Below are positions 19,814-57,832 of a stretch of DNA of 64,000 nucleotides, one piece after another. Source of the stretch: Nocardioides ginsengisegetis (lineage in GTDB: Bacteria > Actinomycetota > Actinomycetes > Propionibacteriales > Nocardioidaceae); the NCBI RefSeq assembly GCF_014138045.1, contig NZ_JACGXA010000001.1, positions 2,217,001 to 2,281,000 of the forward strand. Reading direction: 5' to 3'. How positions within the stretch are numbered: position 1 is the first letter of the stretch; every line of letters begins with the position of its first letter. The notes under the pieces are model-generated. The model saw only the letters and a program-made list of their open reading frames with translations, was not told the origin of the DNA and did not search any database. The position numbers were made by a program, and so were the translations under genes.

Positions 19814-19818
19814 GCTTT

Positions 19819-20422
19819 TCGCCCGCTTCGCGGGCGGATTTCCGCTGCGCGGGGCTGCCTCCCCGGGACATCTCGGCGCGGGGTGGTGGGGCCGGACGGT
19901 CGCTCCCACGTCGACGATGCGAGTCCCTATGCTCGCCGCGTCGCTCGCCACGGCGTGGGTTTCCTGCCGGGCCGCCGCCGGGCGGCGCCGCGCCTCCCTT
20001 TGACGGGACCTCGCATCGTCGCCGCGTGCGCGCCCGCCCGTCCCCACGGCTCGCCGCCCGGCTCCCGGGCGGGCGGGGAACAAGATCCGGTCGACCAACC
20101 AGTCTGCGCTGCCGCAAGACACGGGACATTCCGCGTCAGCGCGGAACGGGTCAGGTGGCGACCCTTGACCCCCGCCCGCCCGGTGGCCGGGAAGCAGGCC
20201 GGGACGGTGGGGCGAGCACGCGGGCCCCTCGCGAGGTCCCGTAAAAGGTCGGCGTGGCGCCGCCGACGGCGAACACGGAAGGAAACCGCCTGTAGCGGCG
20301 ACACGGCGACCCCAGGGACTCGCGAGGGGACCGTGGGATCGTCCCGCCGGCCCTGCCCGGGTGGAGGAACCCCCGGGGAGGCAGCCCCGCGCAGCGGCAA
20401 CCCGCCCGCGAAGCGGGCGACA
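19819..20422. repeat. Composite palindromic repeat, copy 1 (arm A - centre - arm B)
   Basis: This ~604-bp element fills the whole gap between two convergent genes (stops at 19813 and 20427). Its ends are inverted repeats: CGCCCGCTTCGCGGGCG at 19820-19836 and the complement at 20403-20419, continuing inward through GCTGCGCGGGGCTGCC. Arm A (about 19865-20078) and arm B (about 20169-20385) are diverged inverted copies of one another, each with a long hairpin: CGACGATGCGAG/CTCGCATCGTCG in A and CCCCTCGCGAG/CTCGCGAGGGG in B. The 90-bp centre (20079-20168) is bounded by GGGCGGGCGGGG and its complement. Open frames through it are GC artefacts. The same element occurs at 51059-51661 and 57226-57832. 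Confidence 0.92.
20079..20168 (+). other. Central 90-bp module of repeat copy 1, inverted relative to its arms
   Basis: The module reads AACAAGATCCGGTCGACC... to ...GGTGGCGACCCTTGA left to right, with arm A on its left. In copy 3 arm A is also on the left but the module reads in the opposite direction (57489-57578). Copy 2 (51313-51402) is copy 3 reversed as a whole. A small hairpin TTCCGCG/CGCGGAA lies inside. Confidence 0.88.
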
Positions 20423-20426
20423 ACCG

Positions 20427-30302: not shown

Positions 30303-30375
30303 GCCCCGGTAGCCCAACGGCAGAGGCAGTGGTCTCAAACACCATCCAGTGTGGGTTCGAATCCCACCCGGGGCA
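30303..30375 (+). tRNA. tRNA with anticodon CAA (Leu by anticodon), short variable loop
   Basis: 73 nt plus an encoded CCA (30376-30378). Acceptor GCCCCGG pairs with CCGGGGC; anticodon stem GTGGT/ACCAT closes loop CTCAAAC, giving anticodon CAA (reads UUG); T arm GTGGG TTCGAAT CCCAC; discriminator A73. The variable loop is only CCAGT (5 nt). Bacterial tRNA-Leu normally has a long variable arm of more than 10 nt, so this is a class I body with a Leu anticodon. The D stem is weak (3 bp). It may be charged by LeuRS, be a tRNA-like RNA, or be misread by anticodon alone. Confidence 0.8.
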
Positions 30376-49919: not shown

Positions 49920-51035
49920 GTGCTCCCCAACCCCCCTTCGGGTGCGCTGTCCCGGGTCCTGCGTCGCATCGGCGTGGCGGTTCTGGGCGTTGCGCTGCCG
50001 CTGACCCTCACCCCGCCGGACCACACCTCGGCCGCGGCGGGGCCGATCATCCCCCTCCCCGGCAACCCACTCGCCGCCCACCCGTGGGGCGTCTACCTCG
50101 GCCCGCAGGACATGGCCTGGGAGCCGTGGACGAAGGCGACCGGGCGCAAGAAGGAGCTGCTCGACAAGATCGTGCTGCAGCCCAAGGCGCAGTGGTACGG
50201 CAAGTGGGTCCCCGACCGGGACATCGCCGACCGCATCCACAAGCTCGTCGCCAGCGCCACAGGCGGCGACCCGGACGTGATGGTGCAGATGGCGATCTTC
50301 CGGATGGTCCCGTGGGAGGGCAACGACCGGGTCTGCAACCGGCTGCCCACCACCGCGGAGGTCGCGAGCTACAAGAAGTGGGTGCGCAACGCGGCGGCCG
50401 CCATCGGATCGACGTACGTCGCGATGATCCTTCAGCCCGACGGTCCCTTCGCGCTCTGCGCCAAGAACGGCTCGAAGCTGCCGTCGCGCATGATCCGCTA
50501 CGCCGCGAAGACCTTCAGCGCCAACCCGAACACCACGATCTACATCGACGCCGGCGCCGCCGACTGGAACCGCAGCAACCCCAAGACCGCCCTGAAGATC
50601 CTGATGCCCGCGGGGATCAGCATGGTCCGCGGCTTCGCCTTCAACTCCACCCACTACGACTCGGTCGCCGAGGAGGTGGAGTACGGCGCCGCCGTGGCGC
50701 AGGCCCTCGCGGAGAAGGGCATCCTCGACAAGCACTTCGTCGTCAACACCTCCTCCAACGGCCAGCCCTTCCGCGGCTACACCTACAAGGGCCCCGACTT
50801 CGACAACGCCTACGCCTGCCAGGACAAGACCCAGCACCACTGCGTCACCCTCGGCATCCCGCCGACGACCGACGTCGCCAACCCGGCCTGGGGCCTGACC
50901 CTCGGGCAACGCCTCAAGGCGGCGGCGTACGCCGACGGCTACCTGTGGTTCGGCCGGCCCTGGCTCTTCGAGCAGGCGAGCCCGTTCGTGATGAAGCGGG
51001 CGCTGACGCTGGCGCGGACGACTCCTTGGCAGTAG
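49920..51035 (+). CDS. Secreted glycoside hydrolase family 6-like protein
   Basis: The 371-residue protein has a basic N-terminus and a signal-like helix (about 13-32). The GH6 landmarks follow: VMVQMAIFRMVPWEG, YVAMILQPDGPF (usually EPDS/EPDG; the Glu is Gln but the catalytic Asp is kept), TIYIDAGAADW, HFVVNTSSNGQPFRG, and CVTLGIPPTTD...DGYLWFGRPW. Family 6 enzymes are beta-1,4-glucanases and cellobiohydrolases acting outside the cell. The first catalytic block is altered (ENDRVC-like instead of YxxPxRDC), so the substrate or activity may differ. It stops 23 bp before repeat copy 2. Confidence 0.8.
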   Translation: MLPNPPSGALSRVLRRIGVAVLGVALPLTLTPPDHTSAAAGPIIPLPGNPLAAHPWGVYLGPQDMAWEPWTKATGRKKELLDKIVLQPKAQWYGKWVPDRDIADRIHKLVASATGGDPDVMVQMAIFRMVPWEGNDRVCNRLPTTAEVASYKKWVRNAAAAIGSTYVAMILQPDGPFALCAKNGSKLPSRMIRYAAKTFSANPNTTIYIDAGAADWNRSNPKTALKILMPAGISMVRGFAFNSTHYDSVAEEVEYGAAVAQALAEKGILDKHFVVNTSSNGQPFRGYTYKGPDFDNAYACQDKTQHHCVTLGIPPTTDVANPAWGLTLGQRLKAAAYADGYLWFGRPWLFEQASPFVMKRALTLARTTPWQ

Positions 51036-51058
51036 GCCGCTGACGCGGCTTGGTTGCT

Positions 51059-51661
51059 TGTCGCCCGCTTCGCGGGCGGATTTCCGCTGCGCGGGGCTGC
51101 CTTCCCGGGAGGTCGGGCTTCGGGGTGTGGCCGACGGGGCGCTCCCACGGTCCCCTCGCGAGTCCCTGGGGTCGCCGTGTCGCCGCTACAGGCGGTTTCC
51201 TTCCGTGTTCGCCGTCGGCGGCGCCACGCCGACCTTTTACGGGACCTCGCGAGGGGCCCGCGTGCTCGCCCCGCCGTCCCCGGGCCGTCCCCGGGCTCTC
51301 GGGCGGGCGGGGAACAAGGTCCGGTCGACCACCGTGGCTGCGCTGCCGCAAGACAGGGGACATTCCGCGTCAGCGCGGAACGGGTCAGGTGGCGACCCTT
51401 GACCCCCGCCCGCCCGGGAGCCGGGCGGCGAGCCGTGGGGACGGGCGGGCGCGCACGCGGCGACGATGCGAGGTCCCGTCAAAGGGAGGCGCGGCGCCGC
51501 CCAGCGGCGGCCCGGCAGGAAACCACGCCGTGGCGAGCGACGCGGCGAGCATAGGGACTCGCGTCGTCGACGTGGGAGCGAACGCCCGGCCCCACCACCC
51601 CGCGCCGAGACTGTCCCGGGAAGGCAGCCCCGCGCAGCGGCAACCCGCGAAGCGGGCGACA
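51059..51661. repeat. Composite palindromic repeat, copy 2 (reversed: arm B' - centre - arm A')
   Basis: This 603-bp element lies between convergent genes (GH6 stop 51035, hisF stop 51666). It begins TGTCGCCCGCTTCGCGGGCG and ends with the complement, shortened by 4 bp. The left arm matches arm B of copies 1 and 3 reversed (CCCCTCGCGAG at about 51153 and CTCGCGAGGGG at about 51247); the right arm matches arm A reversed. The centre is 51313-51402. As a whole it is copy 3 turned round. The flank TTGGTTGCT just outside the left end is also next to copy 3. Confidence 0.92.
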
Positions 51662-51665
51662 CCCG

Positions 51666-52427
51666 TCAGCGAACGGGATGTCCCGCAGAGGCGAGCGCTG
51701 ACTTCACGTCAGCGATCCGGAGCGTGCCGAAGTGGAAGACCGTGGCCGCGAGGACCGCGTCGGCTCCGGCGTCGACGGCCGGGGCGAAGTGCTCGGCACG
51801 GCCGGCGCCGCCGGAGGCGATGACCGGGATGGTGACTTCGCGGCGGACGGCGCGGATCAGGTCGAGGTCGAAGCCGTCCTGGGTGCCGTCGGCGTCCATC
51901 GCGTTGAGCAGGATCTCGCCCGCGCCCAGCTCGGTGGCGCGGACGGCCCAGGCGATGGCGTCGAGGCCGGCGGACTCGCGGCCACCGTGGGTGGTGACCT
52001 CGAAGCCGGAGTCGGTGCCCGGCGCCCGGCGGGCATCCACGGACAGCACGAGGACCTGGTTGCCGAACCGGTCGGCGATCTCAGCGACCAGCTCGGGGCG
52101 CCGGATCGCCGCGGTGTTGACCGCGACCTTGTCGGCGCCGGCGCGCAGCAGCCGGTCGACGTCCTCGACCGAGGACACGCCCCCGCCGACGGTCAACGGG
52201 ATGAAGACCTCCTCGGCGGTGCGCGAGACGATCTCCATCGTGGTGGCCCGTCCCTCGTGGGAGGCGGAGATGTCGAGGAAGGTCAGCTCGTCGGCGCCCT
52301 CGGCGTCGTAGGTGCGGGCCAGCTCGACCGGGTCACCGGCGTCGCGGAGCTCCTTGAAGTTGATCCCCTTCACCACGCGCCCGGCGTCGACGTCGAGGCA
52401 CGGGATCACCCGGACGGCCAGGCTCAT
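51666..52427 (-). CDS. hisF: Imidazole glycerol phosphate synthase cyclase subunit
   Basis: The 253-residue TIM barrel closes the imidazole ring using ammonia from HisH. Catalytic Asp12 is in [15 protein letters not shown] and the second Asp in VLSVDARR; the phosphate loops are TVGGGVSS and ASGGAG. Length is standard. ATG 52427 overlaps the priA stop. It is the last gene of the his operon and runs into repeat copy 2. Confidence 0.97.
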
Positions 52428-53155
52428 GCGGTGCCCTTGGTGAGGGCCAGCGCGTCCTCGAGGGTGAAGCGACCCTCGTAGAGCGCCGTGCCGGCGATCG
52501 CGCCCTCGACGCCCTCGGGCACCAGCTCCATCAGGGCGCGGATGTCGTCGAGGGTGGTGACGCCGCCCGAGGCGATGACCGGCGCGGAGGTCACCGCGCA
52601 GACGTCGCGCAGCAGCTGGAGGTTGGGGCCGGCGAGCATGCCGTCCTTGTTGACGTCGGTGACGACGTAGCGCGCGCAGCCCTCGGCGTCGAGGCGGGCC
52701 AACGTCTCGTAGAGGTCGCCGCCCTCCTGGGTCCAGCCGCGGGCGGCGAGGGTGCGACCGCGTACGTCGAGCCCGATGGCGATCCGGTCGCCGTGCTCGG
52801 CGATCACCTTGGCGCACCACTCCGGCTGCTCGAGCGCGGCGGTGCCGATGTTGACCCGGCGGCAGCCGGTGGCCAGCGCGGCCGCGAGCGACTCGTCGTC
52901 ACGGATGCCGCCGCTCATCTCCACCTGGATGTCGAGGGCGCCGACGATCTCGGCCTGCAGCTCGCGGTTGGTGCCGCGGCCGAACGCCGCGTCGAGGTCG
53001 ACGAGGTGCAGCCACTCGGCGCCGGCGTCCTGCCACCGGCGGGCGGCGGCCACGGGGTCGCCGTACACGCGCTCGGAGCCGGCGACGCCCTGGGCGAGCT
53101 GGACGGCCCGGCCCTCGGTGATGTCGACGGCGGGGAGGAGCTGGAGGTAGGACAT
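52424..53155 (-). CDS. priA: Bifunctional HisA/TrpF isomerase PriA
   Basis: The 243-residue TIM barrel isomerises ProFAR, and in actinobacteria also phosphoribosyl-anthranilate, since no trpF is present. Asp11 is in [15 protein letters not shown] and the catalytic Asp in [28 protein letters not shown] and the Arg-rich loops match PriA rather than plain HisA. Dual use is inferred from the family and from the missing trpF. ATG 53155 is 11 bp after the small gene. Confidence 0.93.
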
Positions 53156-53166
53156 GGGGCTTCTTC

Positions 53167-53496
53167 CTAGGTGCGGCGGAACAGCATGGTGTACAGGACG
53201 GGGGCGGCCAGGATCGAGACGATCAGCGCACCGACGCGGGCGGACCACTCGGGGACGAAGAGCCAGACCAGGATGTTGAGCAGCAGGAGCAGCGCGATCG
53301 TCGCGCCGGTCTGGCGGCGACGCCGCTGGGCGAGGATGCCGGTCTGCCGGGGGCGGCGCCGGGGCAGTCTGGAGGTCAGGACGGCGCGGCGCGCGTCGCG
53401 GCGCTCACGCCGCTCGGCCTCGGCGGCCCGGGCGGCGGCGAGCACGGCGGCCTCCCGCTCGCGCTCCTCGCGGCGTCGGGCGCGCTCCTTGCTCAC
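53167..53496 (-). CDS. Small membrane protein with basic coiled N-terminus (109 aa), in his operon
   Basis: The 109-residue product has a very charged helix ([37 protein letters not shown], about 2-40), an Arg-rich linker, then two hydrophobic helices (about 66-84 and 87-105). Function is unknown. Actinobacteria often carry a small membrane gene at this place between hisH and hisA. GTG 53496 overlaps the hisH stop (GTGA). Confidence 0.8.
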
Positions 53497-54122
53497 AGGG
53501 TCCCCACCCAGTTGTGCAGGAGGGCGGCACCGGCGTCCCCGGACTTCTCCGGGTGGAACTGGGTGGCCGTGAGCGGGCCGTTCTCGACCGCGGCGACGAA
53601 GCGGTCGCCACCGTGCTCGGCCCAGGTCACCAGTGGCGCGCGCGTGCGGTCGTTGGTGACAAGGGTCCAGTCGCGGACGCCGTAGGAGTGCACGAAGTAG
53701 AACCGCTCGTCCTCGACGCCGGCGAACAGCGTCGACCCCTCGGGGACCTCGACGGTGTTCCAGCCCATGTGGGGCACGACGGGGGCCTGGAGGCGCTCCA
53801 CGACGCCGGGCCACTCGTCGCAGCCCTCGGTCTCCACGCCGTGCTCGACCCCGCGCTCGAACAGCACCTGCATGCCGACGCAGATGCCGAGCACCGGACG
53901 ACCGCCGGCGAGGCGGCGGCCGATCAGCCGGTCCCCCTTGATGGCACGCAACCCGGCCATGCACGCGGCGTAGGCGCCCACACCCGGCACGAGCAGGCCG
54001 TCGGCGTCCAGGCAGGTCTGGAAGTCCGAGGTCAGCACGGCCGTGGCGCCGGCGCGCTCGACCGCGCGGACGGCCGAGCGGAGGTTGCCCGAGCCGTAGT
54101 CCAGGACGGCGACCGTGCTCAG
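53493..54122 (-). CDS. hisH: Imidazole glycerol phosphate synthase glutaminase subunit, CTG start
   Basis: The 209-residue amidotransferase makes ammonia for HisF. It has nucleophile Cys81 in [11 protein letters not shown] and the His/Glu pair in QFHPEKSG. The conserved N-terminus [14 protein letters not shown] is encoded, but the first standard start in frame (GTG 54038) would delete it. The codon before AGC-ACG-GTC is CTG at 54122, which overlaps the hisB stop (CTGA). Homologues read GTG or ATG here, so this is probably a real CTG start. The frame and function are certain; the start is inferred. Confidence 0.92.
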
Positions 54123-54718
54123 AGCGCGCCCTTGGTCGAGGGGATGCCGGTCTCGCGCGGGTCGAGCGCGACCGCGTCGCGGAACGCCCGGGCGAACGCC
54201 TTGAACTGCGTCTCCACGATGTGGTGCGGCTCGCGGCCGGCCAGGACCCGCACGTGCAGGGCGATGTGGGCGTGGAAGGCCAGCGTCTCGAAGACGTGAC
54301 GGGTCAGCGAGCCGAGATAGTCGCCGCCGAGGACGACGTACTGCTGGCCCTCGGGCTCCCCCGTGTGCACGCAGTAGGGACGACCCGACACGTCGACGAC
54401 GGCCTGGACGAGCGCCTCGTCGAGCGGCACGGTCGCGTCGCCGAAGCGGCGGATGCCGACCTTGTCGCCGAGCGCCTCGCGCAGCGCCTGGCCGAGCACG
54501 ATCGCGGTGTCCTCGACGGTGTGGTGCGCGTCGATGTGCAGGTCGCCCTCGGTCTGGACCGTCAGGTCGAGCAGGGCGTGCCGGGCGAAGGCGGTGAGCA
54601 TGTGGTCGTAGAAGCCGACACCGGTCGAGATGTCGTGGCGGCCGGAGCCGTCCAGGTCGACCTCGACGAGCACCTTCGACTCGCTGGTCTGCCGCTCGAG
54701 GCGGGCGGTCCTGCTCAT
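54119..54718 (-). CDS. hisB: Imidazoleglycerol-phosphate dehydratase
   Basis: The 199-residue single-function enzyme removes water from IGP. The two manganese motifs are [11 protein letters not shown] and PHHIVE, with [15 protein letters not shown] between them. No phosphatase domain is fused. ATG 54718 overlaps the hisC stop (ATGA). Confidence 0.97.
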
Positions 54719-55815
54719 GTGAGTCCCTCTTCCGTGACTGCTGTGAGTGCCTGCTTGAACGCGGTCATCTCCGCGGGGGTGCCGATCGAGACGCGGAGCC
54801 AGCCATCGGGTCCGACCTCGCGGATCAGCACACCCCGGTCGACCAGACCCTTCCAGACAGCATGACGGTCCGCGAACGTCCCGAACAACGCGAAGTTGGC
54901 GTCGCTGTCGGCGACGGTGTGCCCCTGCTCGCGCAGCCAGGCCACGGTCGCGTCCCGCTCGGTGCGCAGGTCGTCGACCCGGCCGAGCAGCTCGGGGGCG
55001 TGCCGCAGGGCCGCGAGCGCGACCGCCTGGGTGACGGCGGAGAGGTGGTACGGCAGGCGTACGACGCGGATCGCGTCGCAGATCTCCGGGGCCGCGGCGA
55101 GGTAGCCGAGCCGGGCGCCGGCCAGCGCGAACGCCTTGGACATCGTGCGCGACACGACCAGGTTGCGGTGGTCCGGCAGCAGCTCGAGGGCGCTGGGGGT
55201 GCCGCTGCGGCGGAACTCGCCGTACGCCTCGTCGACGACCAGCACGCCGCCGTCGCCGACGGCCTCACACAGGCCCGCCACCGCCTCGGGCGGCAGGGCC
55301 GTGCCCGTCGGGTTGTTCGGTGACGGGAGCAGCACGACGCTCGGCCGGACCTCCTCGACCAGGGCGTGCGCCTTGTCGAGGTCGAGGGAGAAGTCGCTCT
55401 CGCGGTGGCCGGTGACCCACTCGGTCATCGTGTCCCGGGCGTACTCGGGATACATGGAGTACGTCGGCGCGAAGCTCAGCGCCGTGCGCCCCGGGCCGCC
55501 GAACGCCTGGAGCAGCTGGAGCATGACCTCGTTGGAGCCGTTGGCGGCCCACACCTGCTCGGGCGCGATGCCGTGCGGGGTGTCGCGCGAGAGGTAGCCG
55601 GCCAGCGCGGTCCGGAGCTCGGTGAACTCGCGGTCGGGGTAGCGGTTGAGCGACCCCGCGGCCTCGGCGACCGCGGTCGCGATGTCCGCGACGCAGGCCG
55701 GCGAGGGGCCGTAGGGGTTCTCGTTGACGTTGAGCTGCACGGGCAGGTCGAGCTGCGGGGCGCCGTAGGGCGCCAGGCCGCGCAGCTCCTCGCGGAGCGG
55801 CGGGAAGTCGGTCAT
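54715..55815 (-). CDS. hisC: Histidinol-phosphate aminotransferase
   Basis: The 366-residue PLP enzyme converts imidazole acetol phosphate to histidinol phosphate. [14 protein letters not shown], the PNNPTG turn, VVDEAYGEF and the PLP Lys in [18 protein letters not shown] are all present. ATG 55815 overlaps the hisD stop. Length is standard. Confidence 0.96.
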
Positions 55816-57146
55816 GACGTCTCGACAGGCTCGACGACCGAGGGGAACCGGACGCGGACCGCGGCACCGTGACCCGGCAGGTCCTCGGCCTCGGCGAGGG
55901 TGATGACGTGGTCAGCCACCTCGGCGAGGGCCTCGCGGGAGTAGTCCACGACGTGCACCGACTTGGTGAACGCGCGCACCGACAGACCCGAGGAGTGGCA
56001 CGCGCAGCCACCCGTGGGCAGGACGTGGTTGGACCCGGCGCAGTAGTCACCCAGCGACACCGGCGCGTGCGGGCCGACGAAGATCGCGCCCGCGTTGCGG
56101 ACCCGGGCCGCCCAGCCGGCAGCGTCCTCGGTGTGGATCTCGAGGTGCTCCGCGGCATACGCGTTGACCACGTCGAGGCCCTGCTCGAGGTCGTCGACCA
56201 GGACGATGCCCGACTGCGCCCCGGACAGGGCCGTGGTGATCCGGTCGGTGTGCTTGGTCGCGAAGACCTGCTTGTCCAGCTCGGCCTCGACCTCGCCCGC
56301 CAGCCGCTCGGAGGGCGTGACGAGCACGGCGCCGGCCAGCGGGTCGTGCTCGGCCTGGCTGACCAGGTCGGCGGCGACGTACGACGCATCGGCGCTGTCG
56401 TCGGCCAGGATCGCGATCTCGGTGGGGCCGGCCTCGGAGTCGATGCCGACCTCGCCCTTGAGCAGCCGCTTGGCCGTGACGGTGTAGATGTTGCCCGGAC
56501 CGGTGACCAGGTCGACGCGACGGCACGGACCGGTGCCGAGCGCGAACATCGCGATCGACTGGGCACCGCCCACGGCGTAGACCTCCTCGACGCCGAGCAG
56601 CGCGCACGCAGCCAGGATCGTCGGGTGCGGCAGCCCCCCGAACTCCTTCTGGGGAGGCGAGGCCAGCGCGATCGAGGTGACCCCCGCGGTCTGGGCGGGG
56701 ACGACGTTCATGAGCACGCTGGAGACCAGTGGTGCGAGGCCACCTGGGACGTAGAGGCCGACGCGGTCGACCGGCACCTTGCGGTGGGTCACCCGGGCGC
56801 CGTCGCCCAGCTCGGTGGTGACGTCGTGCTCGAGCTCGGCCTCGCAGGTGGCGCGGAGCCGGCGGACCGACTCCTCGAGGCCGGCGCGGATCGCCGGGTC
56901 GAGCTCGGCGAGGGCGGAGTCGAGCGCGGCCTGAGGCACGCGGATGTCCTCGACGACGACGCCGTCGAACTTCTCGGTCAGCTCGCGGATCGCGTCGAGC
57001 CCGCGCGTGCGTACCGCCTCGATGATCGGGAGGACGGCATGGGTCGCGGCCTCGACGTCGAACTCGGCGCGCGGCACGGCGGCGCGGTAGTCGACGGGAG
57101 CCGCGCCCTCGGCGGCGGCTCCACGCAGGTCGATCCGGCGAATCAT
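55812..57146 (-). CDS. hisD: Histidinol dehydrogenase
   Basis: The 444-residue enzyme performs the last two oxidations of histidine synthesis. Motifs: [57 protein letters not shown] and the catalytic EH in [11 protein letters not shown]. The C-terminal VVEPVETS comes from a dispersed short repeat (see 55817-55840). ATG 57146 lies 6 nt after TAGAAT, so the his operon mRNA is probably leaderless. It leads hisD-hisC-hisB-hisH-109aa-priA-hisF. Confidence 0.97.
55817..55840. repeat. Short dispersed repeat (TCGACAGGCTC core) at the hisD 3' end
   Basis: The core TCGACAGGCTC is shared with 58733-58756 in ybaK. On the reverse strand it encodes the last residues of HisD (VVEPVETS). Confidence 0.6.
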
Positions 57147-57152
57147 GCCCTG

Positions 57153-57158
57153 ATTCTA
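57153..57158 (-). promoter_or_regulatory. -10 element TAGAAT of the his operon
   Basis: On the reverse strand TAGAAT occupies exactly -12 to -7 relative to the A of hisD ATG. No -35 consensus is clear. The edge of repeat copy 3 is about 70 bp upstream. Confidence 0.55.
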
Positions 57159-57225
57159 CGGACGCGGCTCGCCGCGCCCGAACCGGCGACGACGCATGGA
57201 CGGGCCGCTGCGCGGGTTGGTTGCT

Positions 57226-57832
57226 TGTCGCCCGCTTCGCGGGCGGGTTGCCGCTGCGCGGGGCTGCCTTCCCGGGACATCTCGGCGCGGGGTGGTGGGG
57301 CCGGACGGTCGCTCCCACGTCGACGATGCGAGTCCCTATGCTCGCCGCGTCGCTCGCCACGGCGTGGGTTTCCTGCCGGGCCGCCGCTGGGCGGCGCCGC
57401 GCCTCCCTTTGACGGGACCTCGCATCGTCGCCGCGTGCGCGCCCGCCCGTCCCCACGGCTCGCCGCCCGGCTCCCGGGCGGGCGGGGGTCAAGGGTCGCC
57501 ACCTGACTCGTCTTGGGCTGACGCGGCATGTCCCCTGTCCTGCGGCAGCGCAGCCACGGTGGTCGACCGGACCTTGTTCCCCGCCCGCCCGAGAGCCCGG
57601 GGACGGCCCGGGGACGGCGGGGCGAGCACGCGGGCCCCTCGCGAGGTCCCGTAAAAGGTCGGCGTGGCGCCGCCGACGGCGAACACGGAAGGAAACCACC
57701 TGTAGCGGCGACACGGCGACCCAAGGGACTCGCGAGGGGACCGTGGGAGCGCCCCGTCGGCCCCACCCCGTAGCCCGACCTCCCGGGAAGGCAACCCCGC
57801 GCAGCGGCAACCGGCCCGCGAAGCGGGCGACA
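57226..57832. repeat. Composite palindromic repeat, copy 3 (arm A - inverted centre - arm B)
   Basis: This 607-bp element lies between two divergent genes (hisD and the LON-domain gene). It starts TGTCGCCCGCTTCGCGGGCG; the inverted repeat can be extended outward to GCTTGTC/GACAAGC (57224-57834). Arm A (about 57275-57488) is nearly identical to copy 1, and arm B likewise. The centre (57489-57578) runs opposite to that in copy 1, and its internal hairpin TTCCGCG/CGCGGAA is lost here. All frames through it lack codon bias or recognisable domains. Confidence 0.92.

Follow-up and report, generated by a model that had tools for sequence, protein, structure and literature searches.

A nested palindrome fills the gap between two convergent genes

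What kind of sequence is the palindrome of some 600 bp that separates two convergent genes in the 64,000-nucleotide stretch of DNA analyzed here (hereafter, the window)? An initial annotation of the window had bounded it by a thioesterase stop (19813) and a GNAT stop (20427), and both borders hold: copy 1 of the element, a nested palindrome composed of left arm, center, and right arm, occupies 19817–20422 (+ strand, 606 bp) and fills the space between a thioesterase (4HBT) and a GNAT gene, 3 and 4 bp from their stops. Its terminal inverted repeats, first put at about 40 bp, are present and can be refined to 52 nt with 94% complementarity (19816–19867 and 20372–20423). The proposed plan of two arms that are inverted, diverged copies of each other was likewise borne out—arms of ~255 bp, 72–74% alike, surround a center of ~93 bp—and 604 bp of copy 1 match their own reverse complement at 73%. 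In this copy, the left arm (19817–20077, + strand, 261 nt) is followed by the center (20078–20170, 93 nt; inverted relative to copies 3–6) and by the right arm (20171–20422, − strand, 252 nt), which has diverged from the left arm and matches it, inverted, at 73%.

A feature missing from the initial annotation is a hairpin within each arm. Taken alone, each arm is predicted to fold into a long imperfect hairpin, with two small hairpins preceding it at the outer end. The hairpin core of the left arm lies at 19883–20043 (+), with pairs kept by two-sided changes relative to the right arm, and the in-arm hairpin core of the right arm lies at 20202–20359 (−). At the left end, the terminal small hairpin (19820–19836, +; stem CGCCCGC, loop TTC) and the second one (19842–19852, +; stem CCGC, loop TGC) carry GAA and GCA loops, respectively, when read on the complementary strand; their counterparts at the right end are the second (20387–20397, −) and the terminal small hairpin (20403–20419, −). 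GCGNAGC-type DNA is known to form very stable mini-hairpins. Over the whole strand, the lowest-energy fold is a single great hairpin in which the left arm pairs with the right arm.

The palindrome is beyond chance. Folding of copy 1 deviated from shuffled sequences with z scores of −16.4 as DNA and −14.7 as RNA (+ strand), no shuffle reaching its fold in either case (0/20 each), and its folding energy of −477.8 kcal/mol compares with a mean of −310 and a minimum of −349.4 among 30 segments of 600 nt drawn at random from the window. In a self-inversion scan of 964 kb (the 64-kb window, 200 kb more of the genome, and 700 kb of three relatives; 3,810 overlapping 750-bp segments), the best score of 305 belonged to copies of the element and the best place outside them scored 94.5; in the 700 kb of the three relatives, no giant palindrome of other sequence came near the element's score.

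Leaving flanking genes aside, seven open reading frames of at least 80 aa lie in or run into the element. The five that were scanned had no Pfam match, and indels between copies are not multiples of three, in line with the initial statement that the element encodes no transposase and no credible protein. Elsewhere in the window, an Rfam match marks a tRNA gene at 30303–30375 that is unrelated to the element.

Six dispersed copies occupy diverse gene contexts

A whole-genome search, proposed as a check in the initial annotation and made with the 604 bp of copy 1, uncovered six full-length copies (601–608 bp) in the 4.46-Mb genome, all internal to one 3.99-Mb contig, with starts at 50,865, 654,546, 1,463,442, 2,236,819 (copy 1), 2,268,059, and 2,274,228 and orientations, by position, of +, −, +, +, −, +. 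Each of the six places matched the query in both orientations, and no seventh place in the genome matched at E ≤ 0.001. The three copies expected in the window are thus there (19817–20422, 51059–51661, and 57226–57832), while the large genome-wide family that had been supposed shrinks to six members, unevenly spaced, with three of them within about 38 kb.

According to open reading frames and family searches, copies 1 and 6 sit between convergent genes, copies 3 and 4 between divergent genes, and copies 2 and 5 in tandem gaps; one neighbor each of copies 2 and 3 is a reading frame without family match, and for one neighbor of copy 5 the match to a membrane-protein family falls slightly short of the cut-off. 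Copy 6 (51059–51661, −) separates a glycosyl hydrolase family 6 gene from the convergent hisF, about 23 and 4 bp from the flanking stop codons (4 bp on the hisF side), and copy 4 (57226–57832, +) lies between the divergent hisD and a gene for a LON-substrate-binding domain, at a site where relatives lack it. The original description of an element between convergent genes therefore holds for two of six copies and fails for the four in divergent or tandem gaps. With two copies in each kind of context, the element is no convergent-gene terminator, and the double terminator once considered is not supported as a general role.

Copies 6 and 4 (51059–57832), which are 97% complementary over 469 nt, flank the his genes from the end of hisF to the start of hisD as inverted repeats, and recombination between them could invert the his cluster. 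A small hairpin with linker, TTGGTTGCT, is common to the left flanks of copy 4 (57205–57225, +; absent from the relatives' site) and copy 6 (51037–51058); it adjoins opposite arms in the two copies, as if the interior had been flipped relative to the flank. Directly beyond copy 5, on its right side, comes a tandem array of the 10-bp end sequence GCGGGCGACA, with three exact units and one that has a single mismatch (L028 3609–3648; genome C1 about 51,473–51,512).

Relatives hold element-free sites

The comparison of orthologous sites, another check proposed at the outset, covered copies 1 and 3–6 and brought to light an element-free gap for two of the six copies, 1 and 4. For copy 4, we took the hisD loci of the 29 best-matching among 214 same-genus genomes: 28 of these 29 hold both flanks, with 0–185 bp between the aligned pieces, and in one relative (G085) the sequence runs continuously through the insertion point. 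By comparison with G085, the insert of copy 4 takes in a further ~20–25 bp per side, with more small hairpins. The site of copy 1 measures about 59 bp in G085 and about 640 in this genome. Since relatives have the genes on either side of copies 1 and 4 but no element between them, these two copies look like insertions. As for the others, the left neighbor of copy 3 is not conserved in 12 relatives, that of copy 6 is not conserved in G085, and, where relatives have both neighbors of copy 5, these are located apart from each other.

The target duplication sought alongside did not turn up at any of the six copies: no direct repeat of 2–12 bp stands right at the TG..CA ends, and within 45 bp of the ends no direct repeat is longer than expected at random (P 0.11–1.0, six copies). 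Target duplications decay, and copies 4 and 6 may in reality extend beyond the ends used here.

Nor did we find an autonomous partner with the same ends, the exact 19-bp end sequence occurring at ten places in the genome, all within the six copies. Together with the lack of Pfam matches in five of the seven reading frames, this argues that the element is non-autonomous or has lost its mover. REP/REPIN repeats are moved by RAYT (Y1) transposases. A search for an IS200/IS605- or RAYT-type Y1 transposase gave no PF01797 (Y1_Tnp) match in this genome, with matches in 5 of 14 control genomes, and we therefore rejected IS200/IS605 or REPIN machinery as the mover. The absent target duplication and the hairpin-rich ends would suit a mechanism that acts on folded single strands. 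We also rejected a small repeat spread through the genome, as the 19-bp end sequence is confined to the copies; the sequence of the second small hairpin occurs at ten places in copies and one elsewhere, and the flank common to copies 4 and 6 occurs at those two and at two one-mismatch places, compared with four for a control pattern.

The two arms have diverged while keeping their pairs

Once copies 2 and 6 are turned, the six copies align over their full length, with left arms of 257–264 nt, centers of 92–93 nt, and right arms of 252–254 nt. Identity among copies is 95–99% for left arms and 89–99% for right arms, and the reversed right arm matches the left arm at 72–74%. Between the majority sequences of the two arms, we counted 59 substitutions. 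In the in-arm structure shared by both, 8 of 44 predicted pairs have had both partners replaced and nevertheless still pair. In the left arm's own fold, eight pairs are doubly changed and 16 broken, compared with means of 2.5 and 27.8 and extremes of 7 and 18 when the substitutions were placed at random (2000 trials).

In a specified structure of 33 pairs, 99.7% of the 363 cells pair, a share that falls to 34–56% when one side is slid by 1–3 columns, and both the paired share and the covariation score lie above all 500 shuffles; the eight doubly changed pairs, however, are no excess over the shuffle mean of 7.5, and the count of pair types likewise shows none. Predicted pairing energies range from −91 to −95 for halves of left arms and from −80 to −96 for halves of right arms (weakest: copy 1), whereas halves taken from different arms pair more weakly (−66 to −84). 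Copies of the same arm hardly differ from one another, so this pair-preserving divergence amounts in effect to one comparison, left versus right, and either selection or templated correction within the hairpin would produce it. Coordinated compensation inside copy 1, where private block changes affect both sides of the right-arm stem, was considered and rejected: its own right-arm halves pair at −79.7, worse than hybrids with copy 2 (−86.3 and −93.5).

The two strands of an arm differ in their predicted folds. For the whole arm, the strand read from the outer end to the center forms 9–14 G–U pairs versus 2–4 on the other strand (12 of 12 arms) and is the more stable one in 11 of 12 arms, whereas for the core hairpin by itself this strand gives the less stable fold in 10 of 12.

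A fast-changing center occurs in both orientations

Variation is unevenly distributed along the element. Counting ungapped columns over the six copies, we found variable positions in the left arm at 6/72 in the outer, 4/148 in the inner, and 0/36 in the near-center part; the right arm had 19/73, 7/146, and 9/33, all nine of its near-center changes being due to copy 1 alone. In the center, 28 of 100 columns vary, versus 20/363 in the inner and near-center arms (P = 4e-9, all six copies), and the difference persists without copy 1 (26/100 versus 7/364; P = 3e-13) as well as for private changes only, all copies included (16/100 versus 19/363; P = 9e-4). Such low variation of the inner arms relative to the center would be unlike dead insertions, unless the center is hypermutable or selection acts on every copy.

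The center is, moreover, reversed in copies 1 and 2 relative to copies 3–6. Over the central alignment columns, copy 1 is 59–63% identical to copies 3–6 as it stands and 86–94% identical once its center is reversed; the corresponding values for copy 2 are 68–71% and 82–87%. Adjacent changes in the center cluster significantly (P < 0.05) in only four of the 15 pairs of copies, which are not independent of one another; this is compatible with template switching without proving it. In yeast, template switching between inverted repeats leads to homogenization of the arms and inversion of the spacer, as one study reports (PMC8604942). A center that changes fast and is found in both orientations fits template switching where a long inverted repeat has its tip.

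No match to the element in the searched relatives

A DNA search of the 214 other same-genus genomes (E ≤ 1e-6) returned no match. The covariance model suggested in the initial annotation, built here from the arm core, recovered exactly the 12 arms of this genome, always paired (12 arms in six elements), and none in the 214 same-genus genomes (E ≤ 0.01). In these searches, weak relatives could escape, as two candidates were scored for each genome in the DNA search and in the search of the order, and the filters of the covariance search were strict. Another 57 genomes (E ≤ 0.001) gave 11 with one short match each, and 391 genomes of the order gave one other match, of 55 bp, in genome G018, at a place with no inverted repeat longer than 29 nt. 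We dismissed these 12 short matches as chance, their surrounding folds (−287 to −349) falling within the range of random stretches of the window (to −349).

Broader collections, which may leave out this genome itself, added little. Among 84,980 species' genomes, three had one exact match each to the core pattern common to both arms, which we read as chance because an element would hold two. There was no match in viral contigs to the arm-core pattern or two further patterns, none in 72,556 plasmid records or in phage records, and none in Rfam 15, either at the gathering score for the window or at E ≤ 1 for copy 1. Titles and the beginnings of abstracts among the literature matches listed contain no description of such an element, most subscription papers lying outside the range of that search.

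Discussion

We regard the element as a lineage-specific, small, non-coding, and non-autonomous fold-back (MITE-like) mobile element, and give this reading a probability of about 0.6. The simplest history is that a mobile sequence was inserted, given the dispersed copies, the mixed orientations and contexts, and the relatives' sites without the element. Of the options raised in the initial annotation—mobile element, structured RNA, double terminator, or chromosome-organization site—the non-autonomous mobile element is thus the best supported, with copies dispersed in both orientations and element-free sites for copies 1 and 4. The element would have entered or arisen in the lineage after this had separated from the remaining sequenced members of the genus. 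A putative trans-acting recombinase, not visibly linked to the ends, would recognize these ends together with the arm hairpins and would have placed the copies in intergenic DNA, and the center—the tip of the great hairpin—was probably rewritten and flipped when, in replication, the polymerase switched templates from one inverted arm to the other. Against mobility speak the lack of a partner with such ends, the lack of a target duplication, and the small number of copies. We can, tentatively, also picture a mobile element whose recognized form is a folded single strand: arms and end hairpins may serve as the substrate of a putative actinobacterial recombinase or replication protein that leaves no target duplication, with the central tip repeatedly inverted and rewritten. 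Parvovirus ends show a flip-flop to which the inverting center can be likened.

Readings in which the element works in place draw on the kept hairpin pairs and the nearly invariant inner arms, and have against them the missing Rfam match and the missing relatives. We consider it doubtful that inward transcription of each arm yields a hairpin RNA of ~160 nt, which would make two such RNAs for every element. The main pointer to it is the G–U strand bias of the whole arm (9–14 versus 2–4 in 12/12 arms), whose favored strand is more stable in 11/12, followed by the pairs kept by two-sided changes (8/44; eight versus a null mean of 2.5 and maximum of 7 in 2000 trials). The core hairpin alone, however, is less stable on that very strand in 10/12 arms; the arms go back to one old duplication, so that the changed pairs are one comparison and not many events; with eight doubly changed pairs versus a shuffle mean of 7.5, only the paired share and the covariation score are in excess; a scan not made for this phylum gave no sigma-70-like promoter in copy 1; and neither an Rfam match nor a relative in the 214 same-genus genomes was found. 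A host DNA site for chromosome organization, replication, or protein binding, with two facing hairpin arms selected in every copy, would account for arms that are always paired (12 in six elements) and for inner and near-center parts far less variable than the center (20/363 versus 28/100, P = 4e-9), but its absence from every other species examined, the irregular spacing, with three of the six copies in a span of about 38 kb, and the mixed orientation render this unlikely. The proximity of copies 1 (3 and 4 bp) and 6 (about 23 and 4 bp) to flanking stop codons and the terminator-like look of the terminal hairpins would befit a bidirectional terminator between convergent genes, an explanation made improbable by the four of six copies in divergent or tandem gaps and by the position of the sole terminator-like site of the copy 1 scan, inside the center. 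Least probable is that the chromosome captured a minimal linear replicon, of which a pair of ends resembling actinobacterial telomeres would be the relic. On the 3′-ending strand, the small hairpins that form the ends of the element have GAA and GCA loops, and palindromes II and III of Streptomyces telomeres have GCA loops closed by sheared G:A pairs, according to one study (PMC4513846); still, G+C-rich composition alone can yield such loops, and the 72,556 plasmid records hold no match.

The preferred reading, a MITE-like mobile element, invites comparison with known repeats. From bacterial MITEs, the element has the terminal inverted repeats (52 nt, 94%) and dispersed copies with element-free sites (copies 1 and 4), being short, non-coding, intergenic, and stably folded; neither a target-site duplication nor an autonomous relative with the same ends was found. 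Correia and ERIC elements are bacterial MITEs. According to one review (PMC10969869), MITEs are typically AT-rich and mainly derived from insertion sequences, with QMITE and Chunjie as examples. In contrast, our element is 606 bp long and G+C-rich, nests a hairpin in each arm, has an inverted center in some copies, and comes in only six copies, with no target duplication seen and no related insertion sequence found. Eukaryotic fold-back transposable elements likewise have long inverted arms on either side of a variable middle; their arms usually consist of internal tandem repeats, whereas each arm here is one hairpin. With REP/REPIN sequences (PMC3733652), the element shares mirrored hairpins in intergenic DNA and insertion without duplication, yet it is far longer, has few copies, and resides in a genome without a Y1_Tnp match. 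In its tightly packed hairpins and the GCA loops of its 3′ strand, the element resembles the Streptomyces telomere palindromes (PMC4513846); unlike those, it lies internally on a chromosomal contig, matches no plasmid record, and has two facing arms.

What sets the element apart is a combination: a nested palindrome of more than 600 bp that persists in a chromosome, arms that diverged while preserving their pairs, and a fast-changing center in both orientations. To our knowledge, these three features have not been seen together in a bacterial repeat. If kept by selection, the element would represent a new kind of chromosomal site or RNA; if mobile, it would be moved by a putative mover without visible link to its ends. 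With only six copies in the genome, either mobility or selection should be easy to test.
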